DNA of 64,000 bases from Spartobacteria bacterium (GCA_947471565.1 CANIVT010000008.1:1-64000); one strand, 5' to 3'. Shown: positions 6,107-16,963, counted from the stretch's first letter. The notes: generated by a model not told the origin, from the sequence alone. A program made the numbers and translations.

Positions 6107-6544
6107 TTATTTCGATGTAACCCAATCAATAAACCCCTTCGGCCCGCCGGGGATATAGCCGCTCTGCTGCTTGATCACCTTGCCCTCGGGAGAGAGGAGA
6201 ACCAAAGTCGGCAACCCCTCAACCTGATACTGCTGCTGGAGCGCATCGTTCTGCTTTAAGACTTCGGAGCTCAGGGTCTTGCCGATTGGTTGGAACTCAA
6301 CCCTTACAAGTACAAGGTTCTTATCGGCGTATTCCTTAAAGGCCGCCTGGCTAAAGATATCTTTTTCAAGCCGGATGCACCAAGAACACCAACCAGTTCC
6401 CGTGAAATCTAATAGGACTTTCTTGTGTTCCTTGGCGGCCGTGGCTAGGGAGGCCTTGTAATCATCGCTCCATCCTCCGGCAAAGGCCGGGCAGATCAGG
6501 GCGACTGCGATGAAGAAGGTGAGGAGGGAACGGGGGGAGTTCAT
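6107..6544 (-). CDS. Secreted thioredoxin-like protein
   Basis: A 145-aa exported protein with one thioredoxin fold. Residues 1-22 form a signal peptide (basic start, hydrophobic core, AFA before the cut). The redox motif is C53-S-W-C56 within GWCSWC, followed by the cis-proline region GLPTLVL. The second motif residue pair SW is unlike the usual GP or PH; WCxxC forms of this kind occur in small periplasmic thiol-disulfide proteins of the thioredoxin_7 group. The ATG at 6542-6544 is preferred over an upstream start because it opens the signal peptide and has AGGGG upstream. It follows the ECF operon by 94 bases on the same strand and might be co-transcribed. Confidence 0.85.
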   Translation of the reverse strand: MNSPRSLLTFFIAVALICPAFAGGWSDDYKASLATAAKEHKKVLLDFTGTGWCSWCIRLEKDIFSQAAFKEYADKNLVLVRVEFQPIGKTLSSEVLKQNDALQQQYQVEGLPTLVLLSPEGKVIKQQSGYIPGGPKGFIDWVTSK

Positions 6545-6638
6545 ACAGGCCCCTGTTAGTTGATTTTCAGGACGTTGCGCAACAAAAAAAGTTGGGTGTG
6601 ACATAAATCCAGCACCGTTAACTGTTGGATGACTGCGG

Positions 6639-7550
6639 TTATTGAAGGTTTTTCACTGGGACTGGGCAGTTGCTCGAAGAGATCTTGTTCCAAAGATTAG
6701 CGGAGTTCTGTCCGGGAAGCCACGTGTTAGTCACGGGGCCAAAGCCAGAAGCCACATTTGGTTCTACACCGCATTCACGAAAGTTTCCCAACCAACCCGT
6801 CTCACCTTTCAAAGTATGAAGGTTTCCCTTCGGGTCGGTCCTCAAAAAAAGGGCATCTTCCAGAAATGCCATACCTATTTCCTTACTTCTTCCAACTGCA
6901 TGGTTGACTTCGGGTTCAATCAGAAGTCCCCACGGGGCTCCTTTGCGACGATTCTCCGCATAGAGGCTAGTGATGTTTCCAATGCGTTCATCAGTATCCT
7001 TTCCACCAGCTATCCATAAGGCCGGCACCTTTCTAAGGGCCGGCGTTGGAATGCCATGGTAATATGCACCCTTGTTTGCAATAAAGGCATACGTTCGCTG
7101 AGGTTTCCAGCATGCAAAGTTGTAGTTCCACTGGCCTCCGGCGGAGTGGCCCCAGAACCCTAGGGACAAATTTTCGAGTTCTGGATGATTACTATTACGG
7201 GCAAGCTCCGCTATGCCTTTTAGGAAAAGATCACCCGACCAATGTTCGACTTCATAATAACTTCCCCCCTGGTTTCCTCTATTTGAAAGACCAATCAAGG
7301 CGCAACCCGTACGCTGGGCCAATTTCATCCACTGGGGATCGTTGGCAAGACCGCGCCCGTCTGCATTGAGTCCTGGAACCAGAACAATAATGGCGCGAGC
7401 CCTCTCTAGACCATCTGGGAGATAGCATTTGAGCGCCATGACATGATCGTCTGTAAGCGGTGCTTCCCAGTCAAAAACAGCGGCGTTGGCTTTGTTGAAA
7501 ATGAGAAGCAAAGAAAATGCTGCGAAGCTGATAAACGGGTTCAGTATCAT
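6639..7550 (-). CDS. Secreted alpha/beta hydrolase with intact triad
   Basis: A 303-aa exported serine hydrolase. Residues 1-23 are a signal peptide ending in ANA. The nucleophile elbow GHSAGG places the serine at 136; GGKDTDE (D185 or D187) and EVNHAVG (H217) supply the likely acid and histidine. The last gene of the ECF operon, its ATG overlaps the stop of the 1341-aa gene by 4 bases (ATGA), implying coupled translation. The core is visibly similar to the C-terminal domain of that neighbour (shared blocks around W-x(3)-A-x(4)-G-x-x-L and EHWSG/AFWSG), so the two are paralogues. The substrate is unknown; esterase or peptidase activity are both possible. Confidence 0.85.
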   Translation of the reverse strand: MILNPFISFAAFSLLLIFNKANAAVFDWEAPLTDDHVMALKCYLPDGLERARAIIVLVPGLNADGRGLANDPQWMKLAQRTGCALIGLSNRGNQGGSYYEVEHWSGDLFLKGIAELARNSNHPELENLSLGFWGHSAGGQWNYNFACWKPQRTYAFIANKGAYYHGIPTPALRKVPALWIAGGKDTDERIGNITSLYAENRRKGAPWGLLIEPEVNHAVGRSKEIGMAFLEDALFLRTDPKGNLHTLKGETGWLGNFRECGVEPNVASGFGPVTNTWLPGQNSANLWNKISSSNCPVPVKNLQ

Positions 7551-10500
7551 GGGTTCCGTTTGGTTAGATGGGCTTTCCGAACAAAGAAGTCCTGGACGGT
7601 TTTCTCCATATCACCGGTCGGGACATGTCCCGTATTCGGCAACACTTGATACTCCACATCAGACCCCGCTTCCTTTGCCTCGGCAGCATACCCTTCAGTA
7701 ATCTTTCTTCGGTTAAAGATTCCAAATCTGGCATCGTCGCGGTCGCCGCAAGTAATGAGGAGCGGCACGGATTTAAGTTCGGAGAAGGGCTTCAGGTCGG
7801 GGCATCCGTCAAATCGGGTTGTCATGCTTCCGAAGCTGCTCAGTGATGCAGCAAGGCACCGTTCCGGGGCTAATCGCACAAAACCCGAGGCGAATATACC
7901 GCCCCCTCCGTATCCATGAATCAAGAATCGATCAGTGTTAACTGGGTATCGATCACCCAACCATTTCACTGCTTGAAGGAGGGTTTTCCCCGACCAGAAG
8001 GCAGCTTGTTCGTATTCATACCCTCCGCCTGCCCGTTCATTTCCAAATTCAAATTCGGGGATAAGAAGACAAATGCCGTATTCATCTGCAAAGCGCGCCC
8101 AGGAATTGGAATCCAAGATGTATTCTGCGCCGCTGTGATTGAAGGAAGGATTCAGAACGAGTAGCGGCATCTTGATCTCGGCCGATGTGGATGGTCCGAG
8201 AGGCAGTCTTAAAAGGAAGGTCGCCTTATCGCCCTTTCCCGACGCCCCTTTAATGGGAACCTGAAAAACCTTCAAGTGATCTGGAAGATCCTTTGTGGAT
8301 GAAAGAAGGCGGATGTCCCTCACGAGCCTCATGCCAACCGTGTTTAGGAATCCATCGTACTCAAATCGTAATCCCATCCCCGCAGGCCAGACATGAGTGA
8401 TGAATCTCATGGGAGGAGATTGCGTTGATGCTGCCGCTACATTTTCCAAGGCCAGCGAGAGGGACTCGGTTAAAAGGCCCTCTTTTTGGAGGCAACGCGC
8501 CATGTAAAGCCTAGCGTTCTCGCGAAGTTCTCGGGATTGCTTGGTGCTTAGAAGTGGCCCGTCCGGTATCGAAGCGACCAGACGAAACCATGGCTCTGCC
8601 TCCTGATAGTGCCTACCGTAGAAGAGGGTGCTTCCGTAGTTGAATAGAAAAGCGGCCTCCCTCTCTCCTAGCATCGGGGCCAGGGAGAGATCATCGGGAT
8701 GATACAACTCGTTCATCTTTCCAAGATGGCGAAGCGCAAACTCCGTGTATTTAGCTGCATTCAGGCCATGTCCGTCGGACATGAATGACCACCAGTCGGT
8801 TTTTTGCGTCGGGGAGTCGGCGAAACTGCCCGCGGCCGCCGCAATCTCTCTCGCTGAGATAGTTTCATAGGGGCGGCAGAATGCTTTTGTGGACTCCCAC
8901 GAATCCCAAATTTCAGTAGAAACCCGCCGGGGCATTTCCGGCCAATAATCATCGGTATACTGTGCGGGATTCTCACCTATTCTTTCAGCTGCCGCGACTA
9001 CGGTTTGGTAAAGTGACTTTTGAATGGAGTTAAATTCTTGGTCGCTGATCGAAGAGCTGTAGGAGTAGTAGCTGAGGTGTCTCACAAACTGATCCACTTT
9101 TTGTGCAAGGTACATCAATTCTCTCCCGTTTGATGCTCGGCCAAGCCATTTGGGAAAATTCCTCAAGCAATAATCCACAGTCTTTCGATATTTCATGCGT
9201 TCAGCTTTGGCATTGATCGGATCAGAAGACGGAAGGCCGAATGGAAACCCGACTTCATGAGTTGCCTTCTCGCAAAAACTCAGAAGAACAAGGGACTCAG
9301 GCGATTCATCAAACCATGAAGACGGAATGTAAGCGTAATGGCTGCCCCTTCCCAGAATATGAATGGCTGCGATGGCTTCCTGTTTCCATTGCTCTCTAGG
9401 AATCGTAAGTTTTTCCCACTCATTGCAACTCCAGCTTTCCAAGCTCCATTGCACTCCAACTTTTCCATCTTCAAGATTAATTTTGGGGCGTACTGCTGAG
9501 GGAAAAGGAGCCCCCGGCAATCCGGGAACACCCTCTATTTCACCCGCCGCTATACGCGCCAGAGTCTCGAGGTGACGTGCGCAGTCGAGGAGGTGCTGCG
9601 ACTCTTCAAACGATCCTTGCACGTTTGCTTGACCAAGGGCCTCGACGGTGGCGTGACAGGCCTTGATCCTTTCCTCAGGTGCCATTGAATCCATGGTATC
9701 GAACAGAAGCATGTATCTGGCAAAAGCTCCGGGAGCATTATCGGGATGTGACGCGACAAAGCTCCTCAGTGCCTTGATCGGATCAATTATTTCACCCGAA
9801 TAGAGAAGACCCGAAGGATCGTATTTCAGGAAGGAGGCGATCTTGTCGAGATCCAGCCAAGACCTGTAGGGGTCATTCTCGGGAAGGGATTTCCTCACCG
9901 TCTCCTTGAGGGCGTAGTTCAGAAAATTTTCCTCAAGACTGTATTTGCGGGTGAGGCTTTTCTTTTTAAATTGGTTTTTCTGGTTCGCTCCCTGCATCTT
10001 TTTGCCGATCAATGATGGATCGGAAGGGTTGGTGGTCAGCATGCGCAGCAGTTCTAGATTATTTTTTTCCTCCTCGTCCGTAATGGACTCCAATGACCAG
10101 GAATCCGGTGATATGAAATGCGAACCGATACCCCCCCCTTTTTTTACTTCGGGACGTTCTGCAGATTCGACGAGTTGATGCAGGTTTTGTCGCCATGAAT
10201 CCTTCGGATCATAGGAGGTAGTAGCCGTGGAACAGATAGTGCCGCTCAAAGTGTCAAAAAGCGTCCATTCCAGTTTTCTAGCATCAGCAAGCTTGGGAGT
10301 TGCCCTGAGGGACCAACGAGTTAGAAACCCGGGTGCTGTAAGCCACGCCTTGTCTGAACCGCCGACAATGGAATCGTATTCGTTTCGGTAGGAAGCAAGG
10401 TCAGAGGGAAGAACGATTTTGCCTGGGGCTAGGCGAACGAGTGCATCGACTGCCTTCATTTCCTGCAGGGGTTGGCTCTCCGAGCCCTGGATACCCAGAA

Positions 10501-11572
10501 AGGTGATCCCATCTGTGGGAATATTACTGCTCGGAACGGAAACACCCCGGCCCACGAGACACTCGCTTGCATAGCGCCTGACTGCATCCGCAAAAATCGG
10601 GAGCTTCAAGGCATCGTAGCACCGGGCTTCCCATTCGATCGCCTCAACGAACTTGTCGTCCAACCGTTCCGCCTCCCAAAAAGAGGAAAGTGCCGCAGGC
10701 AGATCCCCGTCCCTGTAATGTTTAATACCCTCGTAAAGTGGAGTCAGTGCTTCGATCTGGACTCTTGGTTCCAGGATGCTTGTTGGGGAGGGCTTCAGGT
10801 TTTTGTTCCGTTCAGTAAGAAGGCGAACTACCTCCTCCTGTGCCTTCATGAGTGGAAAGTCGGCCGCAGTCTCAATCCTCCCCTTCCGTGAATCGAGCAA
10901 CTGGAGGTGGAGTTGCTCTCCGTGAATCTGTCCTCGAACGAGATAGTCAGCTCCTGCCAAAGAACCACTGCTCTTGGATGAAATTCCCGATATTGAAAGT
11001 TCGTGTTCCGCAGCCGCGTGTTCGATGATGGATCTATCGAGCACCTCGAATCCCGCTGCTGCAAGACCGTCACGGATCTCCGCCGGCAGTCTGTAGTTAA
11101 TCCCGTCTTGTTCGGGAAAGTCCTCGACTGCTACCTTGACCGGCTTGCTGGAATGAATAGTTCTCTCCTCCGCTTTCTTCAGGAGATTTGCAACTTGATC
11201 GCTTAGATTTTCCCGAGGCGTTGTGCTCTGAGATAGGATTCGTCCGCTTGAGCAGTCGATGATCTCAACGGCCACCGCATCCCCCTCGCGGCGTACGGCC
11301 ATCAAGAAGTCCGCTCCCGCCAGTCTGGCGATTCGGGTATCGGGGTGGGATTGAGCAAATCCGGCGTTGATCGCCTTTTCCCCAAGAAGCTGCCTAAGGT
11401 TGCGCCGGTCGAGCAACTCTATCCCTTTGTCGGAGAGCGCAGCCACGCAAAGATCCTCAAGGTCGCGGTCTTTTCCGGCGGCGAACACCGCGACCTTGGT
11501 ATCAGCGGCCTGTGCCGTAGCAAGACTTGGCGACAGCAGCAGGAGGGTCAGAGCCCATGACGTGATCTTCAT
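7547..11572 (-). CDS. Giant secreted CsgG-like / helical / pseudo-hydrolase protein
   Basis: About 1341 residues. A signal peptide (1-23, ending TAQA) is followed by two repeats of a CsgG/LpoB-like fold (roughly 25-148 and 150-265), each with a stretch like ELLDRRNLRQLLGE or FEVLDRS and a GADxL core. A long helical, TPR-like middle (about 280-1090) follows. The C-terminal 240 residues form an alpha/beta hydrolase fold. Its nucleophile elbow reads HGYGGGG, so the position of the catalytic serine (about 1222) is glycine; the acid (GDRDD, near 1277) and histidine (NTGH, near 1316) remain. It is therefore probably a non-catalytic binding domain. The ATG at 11572 is preferred over a TTG two codons earlier. 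It lies 17 bases after the CsgG-like gene and overlaps the active hydrolase by 4 bases. I do not recognise this architecture. Confidence 0.8.
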   Translation of the reverse strand: MKITSWALTLLLLSPSLATAQAADTKVAVFAAGKDRDLEDLCVAALSDKGIELLDRRNLRQLLGEKAINAGFAQSHPDTRIARLAGADFLMAVRREGDAVAVEIIDCSSGRILSQSTTPRENLSDQVANLLKKAEERTIHSSKPVKVAVEDFPEQDGINYRLPAEIRDGLAAAGFEVLDRSIIEHAAAEHELSISGISSKSSGSLAGADYLVRGQIHGEQLHLQLLDSRKGRIETAADFPLMKAQEEVVRLLTERNKNLKPSPTSILEPRVQIEALTPLYEGIKHYRDGDLPAALSSFWEAERLDDKFVEAIEWEARCYDALKLPIFADAVRRYASECLVGRGVSVPSSNIPTDGITFLGIQGSESQPLQEMKAVDALVRLAPGKIVLPSDLASYRNEYDSIVGGSDKAWLTAPGFLTRWSLRATPKLADARKLEWTLFDTLSGTICSTATTSYDPKDSWRQNLHQLVESAERPEVKKGGGIGSHFISPDSWSLESITDEEEKNNLELLRMLTTNPSDPSLIGKKMQGANQKNQFKKKSLTRKYSLEENFLNYALKETVRKSLPENDPYRSWLDLDKIASFLKYDPSGLLYSGEIIDPIKALRSFVASHPDNAPGAFARYMLLFDTMDSMAPEERIKACHATVEALGQANVQGSFEESQHLLDCARHLETLARIAAGEIEGVPGLPGAPFPSAVRPKINLEDGKVGVQWSLESWSCNEWEKLTIPREQWKQEAIAAIHILGRGSHYAYIPSSWFDESPESLVLLSFCEKATHEVGFPFGLPSSDPINAKAERMKYRKTVDYCLRNFPKWLGRASNGRELMYLAQKVDQFVRHLSYYSYSSSISDQEFNSIQKSLYQTVVAAAERIGENPAQYTDDYWPEMPRRVSTEIWDSWESTKAFCRPYETISAREIAAAAGSFADSPTQKTDWWSFMSDGHGLNAAKYTEFALRHLGKMNELYHPDDLSLAPMLGEREAAFLFNYGSTLFYGRHYQEAEPWFRLVASIPDGPLLSTKQSRELRENARLYMARCLQKEGLLTESLSLALENVAAASTQSPPMRFITHVWPAGMGLRFEYDGFLNTVGMRLVRDIRLLSSTKDLPDHLKVFQVPIKGASGKGDKATFLLRLPLGPSTSAEIKMPLLVLNPSFNHSGAEYILDSNSWARFADEYGICLLIPEFEFGNERAGGGYEYEQAAFWSGKTLLQAVKWLGDRYPVNTDRFLIHGYGGGGIFASGFVRLAPERCLAASLSSFGSMTTRFDGCPDLKPFSELKSVPLLITCGDRDDARFGIFNRRKITEGYAAEAKEAGSDVEYQVLPNTGHVPTGDMEKTVQDFFVRKAHLTKRNP

Positions 11573-11589
11573 CGTCAAATCCGAGGGAA

Positions 11590-12537
11590 TTACGGATTGA
11601 CGATTTTGGGAACCAGACGCTCCAACAGGGTCCAGGAGGCATCCTGAAGAGCGATCTTTCCGGCCGTGGCCTCGGCAATGTCCACGGCAACGGCGTTCTC
11701 GCTGTCGGAATCAAGAAGCTTGCCGTCAGATTTTTTTATAGCCTTGATCTCAACACGGGCACGAGCAGAGACCAGTTGTCCGCGACGGGCGCCTGTCTCA
11801 CTGAATGCCTCGCCCGAGATAATGACCTCTGAGATTTTCTGCGAGTATGCCGGGTCAATTACCTCGAAGCCGAGCTCCTGGAGAACTTTCCTGAATTCGG
11901 TCTGAGCCGCGGGATCAATGGCTACGCGGCGCAGGTCCACCTCGGAGATGCCAACCTGAACGGAGGGAAGGTTCTTTCCCTTCACGATTTGTCTGAGGGC
12001 CTCCAGACGCTGTTCGTTCGTGACGAAAACAGGTATGAAGGAGGACCTCTGGGAATCCAAGAGTTTGCCGACCTTGGTCGAAAGTTCTCCGGTCGGTTTT
12101 TCCCACGATCCCTCTTTGGGAGCAGTGGCCGTCTCACCGAACACCCGTGATGTTTCCGTGCTGATGATCTTGGCCACCACGATCACGGATTCCCCGCTGG
12201 GGATAAGTCGCCCCGTAATCAAGGCTTTGGCCCCCAGCAACTTTCCGGTCTTTGCAGCAGTCGCGGGGTCGTTCAGTCCCGACAAACCCATGGTCTGCTC
12301 ACCTAGGACCTTGTCGATGTCCGCCCTCTCGATCGTCCAGAAATTACCGGAAGTCGAAAGCTGGGCGCTCAGAAGGGCCGCAGCCTCGGCGGCTTTTCCC
12401 TGAAGTTTTTCATCAGAGCTTTCAAAGTTGAGCACGGCGACGGTAAGCGGCGACGGTGAATTCGTGTTTTCAGCCCTCAGGGCGGGCAGAATAACGGCTA
12501 GAAGCCCGATGAGGAGCAGGGGTGTATTATTTTTCAT
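11590..12537 (-). CDS. Secreted CsgG/LpoB-like protein
   Basis: A 315-aa exported protein. After a signal peptide (to about residue 22, LRA), residues 30-165 match the CsgG/LpoB/FlgO style of fold: LTVAVLNFES, then FWTIERADIDKVLGEQ, then GKLLGAKALITGRL. A second, more divergent copy covers about 195-305 (VQVGISEVDLR, GFEVIDPA, ISEVIISGEAF). Family members are outer-membrane or periplasmic assembly or regulator proteins, for example the curli exporter CsgG and the activator LpoB; there is no lipobox cysteine here. The ATG at 12537 forms a 4-base ATGA overlap with the previous gene's stop, which fixes the start. Its fold matches the N-terminal part of the next gene, suggesting that the two proteins act together. 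Confidence 0.78.
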   Translation of the reverse strand: MKNNTPLLLIGLLAVILPALRAENTNSPSPLTVAVLNFESSDEKLQGKAAEAAALLSAQLSTSGNFWTIERADIDKVLGEQTMGLSGLNDPATAAKTGKLLGAKALITGRLIPSGESVIVVAKIISTETSRVFGETATAPKEGSWEKPTGELSTKVGKLLDSQRSSFIPVFVTNEQRLEALRQIVKGKNLPSVQVGISEVDLRRVAIDPAAQTEFRKVLQELGFEVIDPAYSQKISEVIISGEAFSETGARRGQLVSARARVEIKAIKKSDGKLLDSDSENAVAVDIAEATAGKIALQDASWTLLERLVPKIVNP

Positions 12538-13376
12538 GGGATTGCGGGGGTTTTCTGGATGATGTCGAACAGAAGTTTTTGGGCCTTTGGATCCTCGGCC
12601 CATCTGGCGGGTGCTGCATGGTGGATCACCATCTGGATGCGGCGATCCTGCGAGGTGAGGGTGATGTTCTCCGGTGCGGTAGGATCCTCGTGAAAAACCA
12701 TGAGCGAAGAACCGGAATCCATGGATAAGGGCGGTAGCGGAAGATCTTTGTGAAGGTCTCCCACAGCCACTGTGCCGGCTGGAAGTTTTGATGGTAAATC
12801 CCTGCCCAGATCCTCAAAGGGCACCTGCTTGAGACGCAGGAGTTCCCTAAGCCCCTTCATGTCACCGAAAAGTGAAAGATTGAGTGAGTGCCCGGCTGCC
12901 GTCTCGTCGGTGAAGCGCTTGCCAATCTGCCTAATGAACGTATCAGGATAAACCATTAAAGGAATGGAGGCTATTTCGTTCCCATCATTGGATCCGGTCT
13001 CACCGTGTCGGATCTTCAGAAGCATTAGGATGGGCTTTTCCACATCGGGAAGATCCAGAGAAAAGATCCCGGAGCTAAGTTCTTGGAATTTTCCATCAGG
13101 CTGAGTCTGAAAAGTGATGGCCTTTGCTATTGGTTCCCCAAGTTTCCCGCCGGAGAGGTAAAGGTCGGCCGCTACGCCGAGCTGTTGATTCTTTAGAAGA
13201 AATGAAACAGGCAGTTCCCTCGTTCCACCTCCGAAAACACAGCGAACATCATCGGCAGGTGAACTCGGCTTCTTTCCGACGCTGATCAGAAGGACATCAT
13301 TGGTCGATCCCAGTACGATCGCCGGAACCATCGCGAGGATGAGCGAAGACAGCCTCGCGAGCACGCTCCGTCTCAT
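12534..13376 (-). CDS. Secreted protein of unknown function in ECF operon
   Basis: A 280-aa protein with a signal peptide (1-23, ending VLGS). I recognise no domain. The sequence alternates hydrophobic and polar residues (VSFLLKNQQLGVAADLYLS, SLPLMVY-like patches), consistent with a beta-rich periplasmic or surface protein. Both ends are fixed by 4-base ATGA overlaps, with the anti-sigma gene upstream and the CsgG-like gene downstream, so it is made in step with them and probably works in the same envelope process. Confidence 0.75.
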   Translation of the reverse strand: MRRSVLARLSSLILAMVPAIVLGSTNDVLLISVGKKPSSPADDVRCVFGGGTRELPVSFLLKNQQLGVAADLYLSGGKLGEPIAKAITFQTQPDGKFQELSSGIFSLDLPDVEKPILMLLKIRHGETGSNDGNEIASIPLMVYPDTFIRQIGKRFTDETAAGHSLNLSLFGDMKGLRELLRLKQVPFEDLGRDLPSKLPAGTVAVGDLHKDLPLPPLSMDSGSSLMVFHEDPTAPENITLTSQDRRIQMVIHHAAPARWAEDPKAQKLLFDIIQKTPAIP

Positions 13377-13963
13377 GAGCGTCCTCCTTCGACTGCTTTG
13401 GCAATGACGGAGAATCCTTCAAATCCGGAGTCTTTTGAGCCATGGAGAAGCCGACGATCCGTGATGATCATTACGGATCCATCACTGCTTAGCAGAGGCG
13501 TTAACGCCGCAGTGTGACCTTCAAGTTGCAGGTTCACAGGCTGCCCGCTGTAGGTGAGAACCTGGATCAGACGCGTATTTTTCCGAAGAGTAATGAGGAT
13601 GCGCTGATCATTCGGGAGCGACTCTACGGAACCCGAAAGTTTGAGATCAAGGCGCTCGCCATCCTTGATGACTGCAAGGAGTCGGCCAGAGAACATCGAT
13701 TCGACCTCTGAAAACACGTGCAGATTCTGAGTTCGAGATCCGCTTTTCGGGAGCATGACGAGCGCTGCCGCAAATAGCGCCGCTGCACTTGCAAAAGAAC
13801 AAATCCACCAAGAGAGTCGCGAACGCTTCTTTTCATGAGTGGGATGATTCCGATACGCCGTGAGAGTACGATGGCGAGCCTTATCCCGAACGCTTTCGGA
13901 GACTGGATCGATCCTAAGGGCACGCAGGATCTGCTCTGGATTCTCTTCTTCGTTGGACTTCAT
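13373..13963 (-). CDS. Putative membrane-bound anti-sigma factor
   Basis: A 196-aa protein encoded directly after the ECF sigma gene with a 4-base ATGA overlap (13960-13963), which sets the start and strongly implies partnership. Residues 1-50 are charged and would be cytoplasmic, where an anti-sigma domain binds its sigma. A single membrane segment (SWWICSFASAAALFAAALVM) lies at about 52-71. The remaining 120 residues are predicted to be outside the membrane and may sense a signal. There is no ZAS zinc motif (HxxxCxxC). The function is inferred from position and topology. Confidence 0.7.
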   Translation of the reverse strand: MKSNEEENPEQILRALRIDPVSESVRDKARHRTLTAYRNHPTHEKKRSRLSWWICSFASAAALFAAALVMLPKSGSRTQNLHVFSEVESMFSGRLLAVIKDGERLDLKLSGSVESLPNDQRILITLRKNTRLIQVLTYSGQPVNLQLEGHTAALTPLLSSDGSVMIITDRRLLHGSKDSGFEGFSVIAKAVEGGRS

Positions 13964-14526
13964 TCGTTCACGAGTTTGCGCAGCCTGCGTTTGGCAAGAT
14001 GGATGCGCCAGGAAACAGTCGATTCGGCGCATCCCAGCCTTTGCGCCGCTTCTGCGTGGGTGCACTCCTCAAGAAAGACCAGCGCAACTGCCTCCCTCTG
14101 CTCGGAAGGCAGTGACTGCATGATGTAAAGAGCCCGTTCGCCCGCAGCATCTCCATTCCTGCCATCCCTGGCAATTTCTTGATACTGAGCAGCAAGTTCG
14201 AGTTTAGCATCGTGGGCGCGTTTTTGCCGGAGGGCATCACGCGCCGTGTTGCTGCAGATCCTATAGAGCCATGCTTGAAAGGTACTGCTGTCATGGAGGC
14301 CTCGTATCCCCCGTGCAGCTCTGATGAAACTTTCTTGAGTGACATCCTCAGCGGCAGCGTCATCGAGCATGATTCGGAAGGCAAACGCCCGAATGCGGTC
14401 GTAGTATAAGTCAAAGAGAAGACCGAAGGCAGATTCGTCTCCCGAGGCAGCCTGTGCTGCCAAGTCGGGGACGAGTGGGTAATCTTCATCGTTCGACATG
14501 CGTGCATTTTTATATATAAGACGCAT
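13960..14526 (-). CDS. ECF-type RNA polymerase sigma factor
   Basis: A 188-aa extracytoplasmic-function sigma factor that redirects RNA polymerase. Region 2 is visible as FGLLFDLYYDRIRAFAFRI followed by EDVTQESFIRA near residues 35-70, and region 4 as a helix-turn-helix (EQREAVALVF, then AAQRLGCAESTVSWRIHLA) near 138-178. The first ATG is at 14526, with AGGA three bases before it; an alternative ATG at 14499 would remove nine residues. It heads a coupled six-gene operon and probably controls its own promoter in the AT-rich 196-bp gap upstream. Bound and held by the next gene product, it most likely responds to an envelope signal. Confidence 0.9.
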   Translation of the reverse strand: MRLIYKNARMSNDEDYPLVPDLAAQAASGDESAFGLLFDLYYDRIRAFAFRIMLDDAAAEDVTQESFIRAARGIRGLHDSSTFQAWLYRICSNTARDALRQKRAHDAKLELAAQYQEIARDGRNGDAAGERALYIMQSLPSEQREAVALVFLEECTHAEAAQRLGCAESTVSWRIHLAKRRLRKLVNE

Positions 14527-14722
14527 GCATCCTGAAGATTCCTTGGGAAACTTTCGTTTTAACTGGATATTTCTTTATGAGGCTACCGTGACAGCGAAAT
14601 CTTTATTATCTCTAAAAAGTTATCGGTACGCTTTGTGTAAACGCGTATCTCTATAAATAGCAGTCAGATGTAGAGGATGCTGCAAGAGGTACCGCTTGCG
14701 ACATTGTTGGTGAAGAAGCGGG

Positions 14723-16963
14723 CTACGGTGTGACTGTTGGTGATGGACTGGGTGCAGGTCGTGATGGTTTGTTCTGCTGGGATTCCAGCAGAAGTGCATT
14801 CCGGCGATTGAGTAAAGCATTCAGGGCATCCCAGTTCTTATAGGTGCCAGTGAAAAACGCTCCGGCCCCATTACTGGCGCAGGACTCTGCAATGGCGATA
14901 TATTGCCGCCTAGCCTCTTCACTCACAGGAGTTTCGGCATAGGCGAGATCGTTAATCACGCTGCCATTGAGAAATACTGTGAGGTCATCCTTGGAGACGT
15001 TGTTGCTGGCGCAGTAATCCGGAAGTTGTGCCAGTTGTTTGAGTCCGGCTGCCAATATTAATGTCGCCTCAAGTTGCTTGCGGTAAGTTTCCATTTGCGG
15101 GAAGAACTCATTGGTTCTGAGCCCCTCGTACACTGGGGAGAGCCTCCCGAGGAAATAAGCACCGACCTTGTCGGCCTCGGCGGGATTATTCGTGGAGACG
15201 CCAAGGCCTGCTAGGAGCTTGGCATCCACGGCATCGAGGGTCTCCTTGACGCCTTTACGCTGTTGGATCTTCTCGGCAATTCGCGCTTTGGCCTTGAAGG
15301 TCTCTTCACTCGGAGGAGTCGTAATGGCGTAAATCAGGGCATAATTGAACGTGGAGGCCTGCCACGCATTTAGGGCGTTTCTGCGGATCTTGGCCGCCTT
15401 ATCGGTCTGCCCGTCGATCTGAGCAAAGAAGTAGGCGGAAAGCGCCGTCACCATCCTCGCGTTCTCATCCCCCATGGACATGAGTTGATCACGGGTCGGA
15501 CCATCACCCTGGATGAGAGGGGCAGACTTGTAGTTTTCGGTCAGGATCTGCTCCAGTCGGGTACGGATTTCCTTGGCCTTATCAGGCAGGGACTGACGCA
15601 TGGCAGCGAGCATCTGGTAGAGAGGCCCCTCGCCACGCTTGGGTTGATGCTGTTCATATCGCTGGGCGTATGCGGCACTCAGATTCCAGTCCTCTAGGAG
15701 AGCCGCACTCATGGCGAGCTCCCATGCCATGGCTTTGTTGGCGTTTTCCGGTGTGGGTGGATTCTGACCGAACAGCATAGACTTGGCCTGATCATCCAAT
15801 CCCATGCGGAGAAGTAGACCAACCAAGGGATAGGCGTCCCGTCCGCTACCCTTCTTCCCACCGGAAAGGCTTACAGCGGCCTCCTCAACCTTTCCGTGAC
15901 GTTCCAGGGCGTATCCATAAAAGTAGGGGATGCCGAATTCCCCGTAAAATCTCGAGGCAAGTCTCAGTTCCTGGAATTCCTGGTTGCTGATTTCATCAGG
16001 CGTTTTTGTCAGCGTCAGGAGAGCGGAGGAGAGGTACTTGCTATCCGGATGAGCTGCTTGAAGGGATGCCAAGGTCTTGGCGCCCTCCGCCGCTTTACCA
16101 TTCCCTTTCAGTTGGTAGGTAGCTTGAAAAAACTTCAGGATATCCGGCACCCCTTGGGGAAATGCCTTAAGCTTCTCATCCAGATCCTTGCACGCATTCT
16201 TGTAGCCTTGGGCCCAGGCGATGCATCGGGCGTGCTTGGCGACGGCAAAGGGATTGGCGGGATTATCCTTGAGGACTTCATCCCAAGCGACCGCCGCCTC
16301 TTTCCATTTTCTCTCCTGGCTGAGGGAAACGGGCGCCAAATACCGTTGATCCTCTGCAGAAATAGTTGGTGAGATGCCGGAGAACCTCGGATCCTGCTTT
16401 AGTATACCAAGAATATCGTCCCGCAGGACCTGCGGCTCTTCATACTGACCGTCGAGGCGGATGATTCCCTTCGGGTCAATCAGGTACCAGACAGGGATGG
16501 ATCCAATTTCGTAAAATTCCGGAGTCCCGTTCATCCCGGTAAAGGCACGGATCCCGTGAAAATCGGTCAGACTGTTGAACACAGCATCAGCGAGAGACAG
16601 ATCGTCATAGATCTCGACGAACTCAAAAGGCTTCCCCTCCAGATCTTTCCTGATGAAGGAAAAATACTGGGCCGTGGTTTCTGAGGAGGGGCACCAGCTT
16701 CCACCGATCTGAAGCAGCAACCAACGACCGGAGAAATCAGCAACCCTGTAAGTCATCCCATCGGTCGCCTGGAAGCTGAAGTCTGGAGCCTTCTGACCGA
16801 TCGCCGACTTGAGCTTAGCGGCAGCCTTCTTTTCGGAGGCAGGATCGGAGGGAGCTTCGGGATCTCTTGAGCCAGGATCATACTGGGCCTGAAGGTTTGG
16901 GTTAAAAGTATTCACCAGAAACAGGAACACAGCCGGCCAGACAAAGTGGGAATATCTGTACAT
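14723..16963 (-). CDS. Secreted redoxin-TPR protein
   Basis: A 746-aa exported protein. A signal peptide covers residues 1-26 (NLQA). Residues 55-190 form an AhpC/TSA or TlpA-like thioredoxin fold (GQKAPDFSF, WLLLQIGGSW, IPVWYLIDPKGII). The active site is C91-P-S-S94, so only the first cysteine of a CxxC is kept. From about 200 on the protein is helical with repeated tetratricopeptide-like units. The C-terminal tail is Pro/Ser-rich. Loss of the resolving cysteine suggests a one-cysteine peroxidase-like or non-redox role. It sits 196 bases upstream of the ECF operon on the same strand and may feed into the same envelope process. Confidence 0.8.
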   Translation of the reverse strand: MYRYSHFVWPAVFLFLVNTFNPNLQAQYDPGSRDPEAPSDPASEKKAAAKLKSAIGQKAPDFSFQATDGMTYRVADFSGRWLLLQIGGSWCPSSETTAQYFSFIRKDLEGKPFEFVEIYDDLSLADAVFNSLTDFHGIRAFTGMNGTPEFYEIGSIPVWYLIDPKGIIRLDGQYEEPQVLRDDILGILKQDPRFSGISPTISAEDQRYLAPVSLSQERKWKEAAVAWDEVLKDNPANPFAVAKHARCIAWAQGYKNACKDLDEKLKAFPQGVPDILKFFQATYQLKGNGKAAEGAKTLASLQAAHPDSKYLSSALLTLTKTPDEISNQEFQELRLASRFYGEFGIPYFYGYALERHGKVEEAAVSLSGGKKGSGRDAYPLVGLLLRMGLDDQAKSMLFGQNPPTPENANKAMAWELAMSAALLEDWNLSAAYAQRYEQHQPKRGEGPLYQMLAAMRQSLPDKAKEIRTRLEQILTENYKSAPLIQGDGPTRDQLMSMGDENARMVTALSAYFFAQIDGQTDKAAKIRRNALNAWQASTFNYALIYAITTPPSEETFKAKARIAEKIQQRKGVKETLDAVDAKLLAGLGVSTNNPAEADKVGAYFLGRLSPVYEGLRTNEFFPQMETYRKQLEATLILAAGLKQLAQLPDYCASNNVSKDDLTVFLNGSVINDLAYAETPVSEEARRQYIAIAESCASNGAGAFFTGTYKNWDALNALLNRRNALLLESQQNKPSRPAPSPSPTVTP

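Follow-up and report, generated by a model that had tools for sequence, protein, structure and literature searches.

The minus-strand operon analysed here belongs, as one subtype, to a broader modular family of ECF sigma factor systems, whose gene order, promoter and sigma group recur in other families, orders and phyla. It lies at positions 6,639 to 14,526 of a 64,000-nucleotide stretch of Spartobacteria bacterium DNA (CANIVT010000008.1, the window). In kind it is known, a probably autoregulated ECF system, with an apparently undescribed effector set. A preliminary description knew of no described system with this gene set, and we likewise found no account of the gene set or of the PVC-wide sigma group in the literature searched; the sigma group may already carry a number in the ECF classification. 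Our preferred reading, which we hold to be reasonably probable, is that the operon makes an exported complex of CsgG modules under autoregulated ECF control, with an esterase-type output on an ester-bearing polymer in this lineage.

Computation established the gene order, the conservation, the grouping of the sigma factors, the motif in the promoter and the loss or retention of catalytic residues. Re-reading the region from open reading frames and translations gave a six-gene minus-strand layout that agrees with the preliminary description at every junction. The genes encode an ECF sigma factor (13960..14499, annotated from 14526), a putative anti-sigma factor with one predicted transmembrane helix (13373..13963), an exported two-domain protein previously listed as a secreted unknown and here called P3 (12534..13376), a small exported CsgG-like protein (11590..12537), a giant exported protein of 1341 aa (7547..11572) and an exported alpha/beta hydrolase (6639..7550). 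Four junctions are 4-base ATGA overlaps (13960/13963, 13373/13376, 12534/12537 and 7547/7550), and a 17-base gap separates the end of the CsgG-like gene (11590) from the start of the giant (11572). The preliminary reading as an ECF-sigma operon whose products are exported is supported; on visual inspection, each of the last four products has an N-terminal signal sequence. The proposed production in a fixed ratio is not general: relatives often have a short gap in place of an overlap, and in some a further copy of the promoter precedes P3.

Directly downstream, 34 bases past the operon stop, begins a gene for a thioredoxin/DsbH-like protein (6107..6604, minus strand), a possible read-through seventh gene that may be co-transcribed with the operon. 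It is also found downstream in a second genome of the genus, with one gene inserted, and falls outside the core in other loci. Directly upstream of the operon, a minus-strand gene (14723-16963) encodes a thioredoxin domain of TlpA/AhpC-TSA type and, after it, a long stretch that is probably helical; this gene is not the operon's neighbour in the second genome.

The giant is present in 2 of the 16 genomes of the genus. The second carrier (G004) has an identical six-gene order with proteins 58-81% identical; its upstream neighbour differs (tsaD) and the downstream thioredoxin is shared with the window. A first contig scan with the giant alone as query gave no match. With a two-sequence profile, full-length giants were recovered from other families (G091, G118, G113) and from another order (G390, G428), adjoining the same genes wherever the contig extends far enough; among relatives from the window's probable order, those with names are Chthoniobacteraceae and Terrimicrobiaceae MAGs. 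A seven-sequence profile also recovered the giant from another class of the phylum (G634), and one relative (G252, L039) lacks the hydrolase domain and is located away from the core. The operon is patchy within the genus but ancient.

The small CsgG-like protein, which is the most conserved exported core product (32-79% identity across the family), reaches further. A scan of named genomes with it gave 192 relatives, and the best 80 of the 192, which were examined, come from Verrucomicrobiota, Kiritimatiellota, Lentisphaerota, Planctomycetota and MAGs labelled Omnitrophota. A few of the MAGs bear proteobacterial labels, possibly through errors of binning. Over 86 loci a core is evident that consists of the ECF sigma factor, the one-helix anti-sigma factor, P3 and the small CsgG-like protein, usually accompanied by large exported proteins with N-terminal CsgG-like domains. 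Among the 72 loci with more than 3 kb upstream, P3 was found in 61, the anti-sigma factor in 42, the sigma factor in 41 and all three in 36; the absence of a detected sigma or anti-sigma factor from about half of the loci is due partly to contig ends and gene calling and is partly perhaps real. Larger CsgG-type proteins lie near the core in 70 loci, and a large gene is inserted between the anti-sigma factor and P3 in L087, L097 and L099. Junctions of at most 30 bases, many of them 4-base overlaps, join P3 to the CsgG-like gene (57/70) and sigma to anti-sigma factor (31/41). Within five genes upstream of the CsgG-like gene, 46/315 ORFs are sigma ORFs, as are 2/495 elsewhere in the loci, a contrast that is somewhat favourable, the sigma model having been refined on the same loci. 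The preliminary description had named a failure of the genes to co-occur in relatives as refuting its claim; they do accompany the sigma factor in distant relatives.

The sigma factor contains regions 2 and 4 (Pfam Sigma70_r2 and r4_2, 4.8e-14 and 6.1e-13; TIGR02937, 4.3e-24) and no further domains in its 179-188 aa. In a tree with 28 other ECFs from four genomes, 44 of the 45 system sigmas form one group, and there are 2 label changes where shuffling gives 22.6; the branch that joins them has middling support (85/83). The adjoining anti-sigma factor has a hydrophobic helix that peaks at residue 53 in the window protein, and a single such helix is present in 44 of 45 homologues. The predicted layout is a cytoplasmic N-terminus of about 50 residues, the helix and a periplasmic C-terminal domain. 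One homologue carries zf-HC2 (7e-6), and none of the anti-sigma domain models matched the window protein. An identity as PycTM was rejected, the match being weak, located at the membrane helix and below the cut-off.

Upstream of the sigma gene we found a two-box motif, TTC(C/A)AAGGATTT-N12-CGTCTAAT. In the window this ECF-type promoter (14515..14548, minus strand) has the -35 box TCCCAAGGAATC (14548-14537), a 13-base spacer and the -10 box CGTCTTATA (14523-14515). The true start of the sigma factor is probably ATG 14499 (MSNDED..., 179 aa) rather than 14526, because the -10 box falls within the annotated ORF; the distance from the -10 box to ATG 14499 is 16 bases and is equal in the G004 relative, whose promoter scores 25.6 after correction of the sigma start. 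The window promoter scores 21.6 in leave-one-out and 22.8 as the full score, compared with a median of 5.6 and a maximum of 13.8 in shuffled upstream regions, and is the top site in the 64 kb window (runner-up 14.0). Across the 43 loci scored, leave-one-out scores exceed the shuffled maximum in 35 and the 95th percentile (10.4) in 38, and the spacer is 12 in 39. A conserved promoter before the sigma gene, as computed here, supports autoregulation.

A strict-pattern scan of the whole window genome returned this promoter and a single chance-level site. Looking for further members of the regulon, we examined the window genome and five others; only operon promoters stood out, and the remaining hits were within genes or repeats. 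Sigma-70-type promoters and terminators in the operon region were at or below shuffled expectation. A single transcript from the 14548-14515 promoter is likely in the window genome, since the only convincing site there is at the operon head. Elsewhere, second copies of the motif stand before P3 (L086, L094, L097, L098, L102, L107, L138 and L141), and the motif also precedes separate large CsgG genes (L073, L118 and L127). In silico, the regulation of the operon is well supported.

Like operons of the RpoE-RseA type (group IV sigma70; general features in PMC8103513), the regulatory part pairs a two-domain sigma factor with an adjacent one-helix, putative anti-sigma factor and has a CGTC -10 in a promoter of autoregulatory type. 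ECF promoters usually have CGTC at -10 and AAC in the -35 (PMC8103513); in contrast, the -35 of this system is CAAGGA/CAAAGA, without AAC. Unlike known ECF/anti-sigma operons, its regulon looks local and made of exported proteins with CsgG folds.

The small CsgG-like protein matches PF03783 (1.5e-13) and aligns with E. coli CsgG in hhalign (E 1.9e-5). It shares with the curli channel protein a homologous alpha/beta periplasmic part, but the alignment ends at CsgG residue 149, before the pore-forming part, and the sequence has no hairpin-length insert after it. The lipobox is missing in the window protein and in 95 of 101 family members. When the profile of the CsgG-like protein was run against PDB sequences, no match rose above chance level (E 0.03 and worse). 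The earlier CsgG/LpoB-like label does not imply a curli pore: the protein has a module in common with CsgG, and a curli-type channel role is unlikely. P3 was studied with AlphaFold2, Foldseek and VIA-align. The model (pLDDT 81.9) has an Ig-like beta-sandwich (23-147) and a C-terminal alpha/beta domain (147-275), and a profile of P3 found no PDB or Pfam relatives. Structural matches to the N-terminal domain (Z 7-9) were discarded as a functional clue, as they reflect a common beta-sandwich arrangement.

The giant was dissected with Pfam, homologues, AlphaFold2, Foldseek and a motif survey. By sequence, its N-terminal part contains two CsgG-like domains (about 25-135 and 142-256; PF03783 at residues 174-216, 8.2e-5). 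In the AlphaFold2 model of residues 142-1341, which is of middling confidence (pLDDT 68.6), there is a TPR-like segment (273-339), and a third beta-alpha-alpha-beta-beta-beta-alpha element (353-472) has the strand and helix order of the CsgG-like domains. The C-terminal part consists of a helical solenoid (about 500-1047) and an alpha/beta-hydrolase fold without the nucleophile serine (1100-1335), for which the best Foldseek matches are esterases. The nucleophile elbow in the window is GYGGG, with Gly replacing Ser. Of 10 giants, 8 have another residue in place of the catalytic serine (Gly in 4, Thr in 3, Ala in 1), and L071 and L074 retain Ser. The separate hydrolase has GHSAGG (Ser136), with Asp185 and His217 (NHAVG) as candidates for the remaining catalytic residues and a distant similarity to the PHA depolymerase family; GxSxG is intact in 5 of 5 separate downstream hydrolases. 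Both domains recall LpqC, PHA-depolymerase and feruloyl-esterase hydrolases, the giant in its C-terminal fold and the last gene in its GxSxG and His, but the sequences are distant, and the copy in the giant is joined to CsgG-like modules and has mostly lost the serine.

The effector end is variable. The separate-hydrolase position is occupied by another hydrolase in L080 and L082 and by a polysaccharide deacetylase in L074 (the G118 locus; PF01522, 2.2e-21), and in L091 a hydrolase is fused to the giant. C-termini of the large proteins vary by lineage between hydrolase, FGE-sulfatase (1.6e-48), SGL-like propeller and TPR. The six-gene system of the preliminary description is real, and it represents one subtype of a family in which large proteins with other C-termini occur elsewhere.

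In the reading that we prefer, the membrane anti-sigma factor would hold the sigma factor and expose a periplasmic domain; an envelope signal would free the sigma factor, which would transcribe its own operon from the CAAGGA/CGTCTWA promoter. The remaining products are exported and probably assemble, in the periplasm or at the surface, into a complex of CsgG-fold modules, with the small CsgG-like protein and P3 as the constant part and the giant as a scaffold with an interchangeable C-terminal effector. In the window lineage the effector would be the pseudo-hydrolase together with the separate intact alpha/beta hydrolase. Because a pseudo-hydrolase is paired with an intact hydrolase, the output is probably de-esterification (editing) of an ester-bearing envelope or surface polymer. 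We infer the signal, the complex and the exact function of the operon, and the substrate is a guess from distant relatives. A wider formulation, which we put forward tentatively, is that of a PVC-specific envelope machine with its own ECF group, a core of P3 and CsgG-like protein, giant scaffolds with exchangeable effectors, and a pseudo-hydrolase that positions or regulates the active hydrolase.

Other functions have been weighed against polymer editing. It is unlikely that the operon serves nutrient scavenging, with a sigma factor that responds to a polymer outside the cell, or to what is released from it on breakdown, by inducing secreted feruloyl-esterase or polyester-depolymerase-type esterases with a carrier scaffold. 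Export of the products would fit, as would the closest relatives of the hydrolase domain, which are feruloyl and other esterases among solved folds and poly(aspartic acid) hydrolase-1 and LpqC by sequence. However, loci that have no hydrolase of this kind still keep the core, most giants have a dead hydrolase domain, and neither transporters nor glycoside hydrolases were seen recurring in the operon. A role as a helper of Tol-Pal or peptidoglycan synthesis, in which CsgG-fold modules like TolB_N or LpoB tie envelope layers together under stress, is distinctly improbable. Weak matches to TolB_N (0.0013), the TolB propeller (0.0019) and LpoB (0.09) speak for it, together with a propeller-like end on one large relative, and some large relatives may join CsgG/TolB_N-type domains to propeller-like C-termini. 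These matches are below curated cut-offs (TolB_N 19.3 bits against 22.4), the window proteins have no propeller family and no lipoprotein anchors, and no Tol, Pal or PBP genes were seen recurring in the operon; unlike TolB, the system has two or three CsgG-like domains and a long helical middle.

Curli-like secretion would make the CsgG-like protein an outer-membrane pore and the large proteins its cargo or plugs. The PF03783 and hhalign matches speak for it, but the truncated alignment and the family-wide lack of the lipobox run against it, no csgA/B/E/F was noticed recurring among the labelled neighbours, and we regard it as very improbable. That the cluster is a lineage-specific assembly held together by chance, without general meaning, agrees with its presence in so few genomes of the genus and is scarcely credible otherwise: phylum-wide conservation rules out both chance and an oddity of the genus. 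Anti-phage defence was also dropped as a candidate, with no PADLOC match for five operon proteins.

Envelope biology and signalling are poorly known in Planctomycetota, Verrucomicrobiota and their relatives. The system offers a sigma/anti-sigma group that is well delimited and whose promoter can be read, a few constant exported proteins without assigned function and a modular giant family, and the pairing of pseudo-enzyme and enzyme is a specific, testable mechanism. Its function is directly testable because relatives of the core occur in isolate records, namely of Geminisphaera colitermitum TAV2, Verrucomicrobium sp. BvORR034 and Rhodopirellula sp. JC639.

Relatives of the large proteins and of the CsgG-like protein occur in further arrangements. 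Homologues of the giant's C-terminus form tandem stand-alone hydrolases (L061:8026-10517, L062:6057-9472, L063:6990-9741, L066:8057-10984 and L067:6864-9585), which recur in one phylum group, keep GYSAG-type motifs and adjoin a Wzy_C/O-antigen-ligase-like gene; from this neighbour of distant relatives, a surface polymer is weakly suggested as the hydrolase substrate. A planctomycetal protein (L120:16787-20797, Planctomycetota) joins an N-terminal CsgG-like domain to a C-terminal FGE-sulfatase (formylglycine-generating enzyme-like) domain. At L081:10894-20891 (a locus also listed as L036), the core is followed by two copies of the giant in tandem and a 1066-aa CsgG-type protein, each giant being split by a stop or frameshift through assembly error or decay. 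Downstream of the CsgG-like gene in L094, L098 and L086 are rows of paralogous small CsgG-like proteins of about 305-340 aa.
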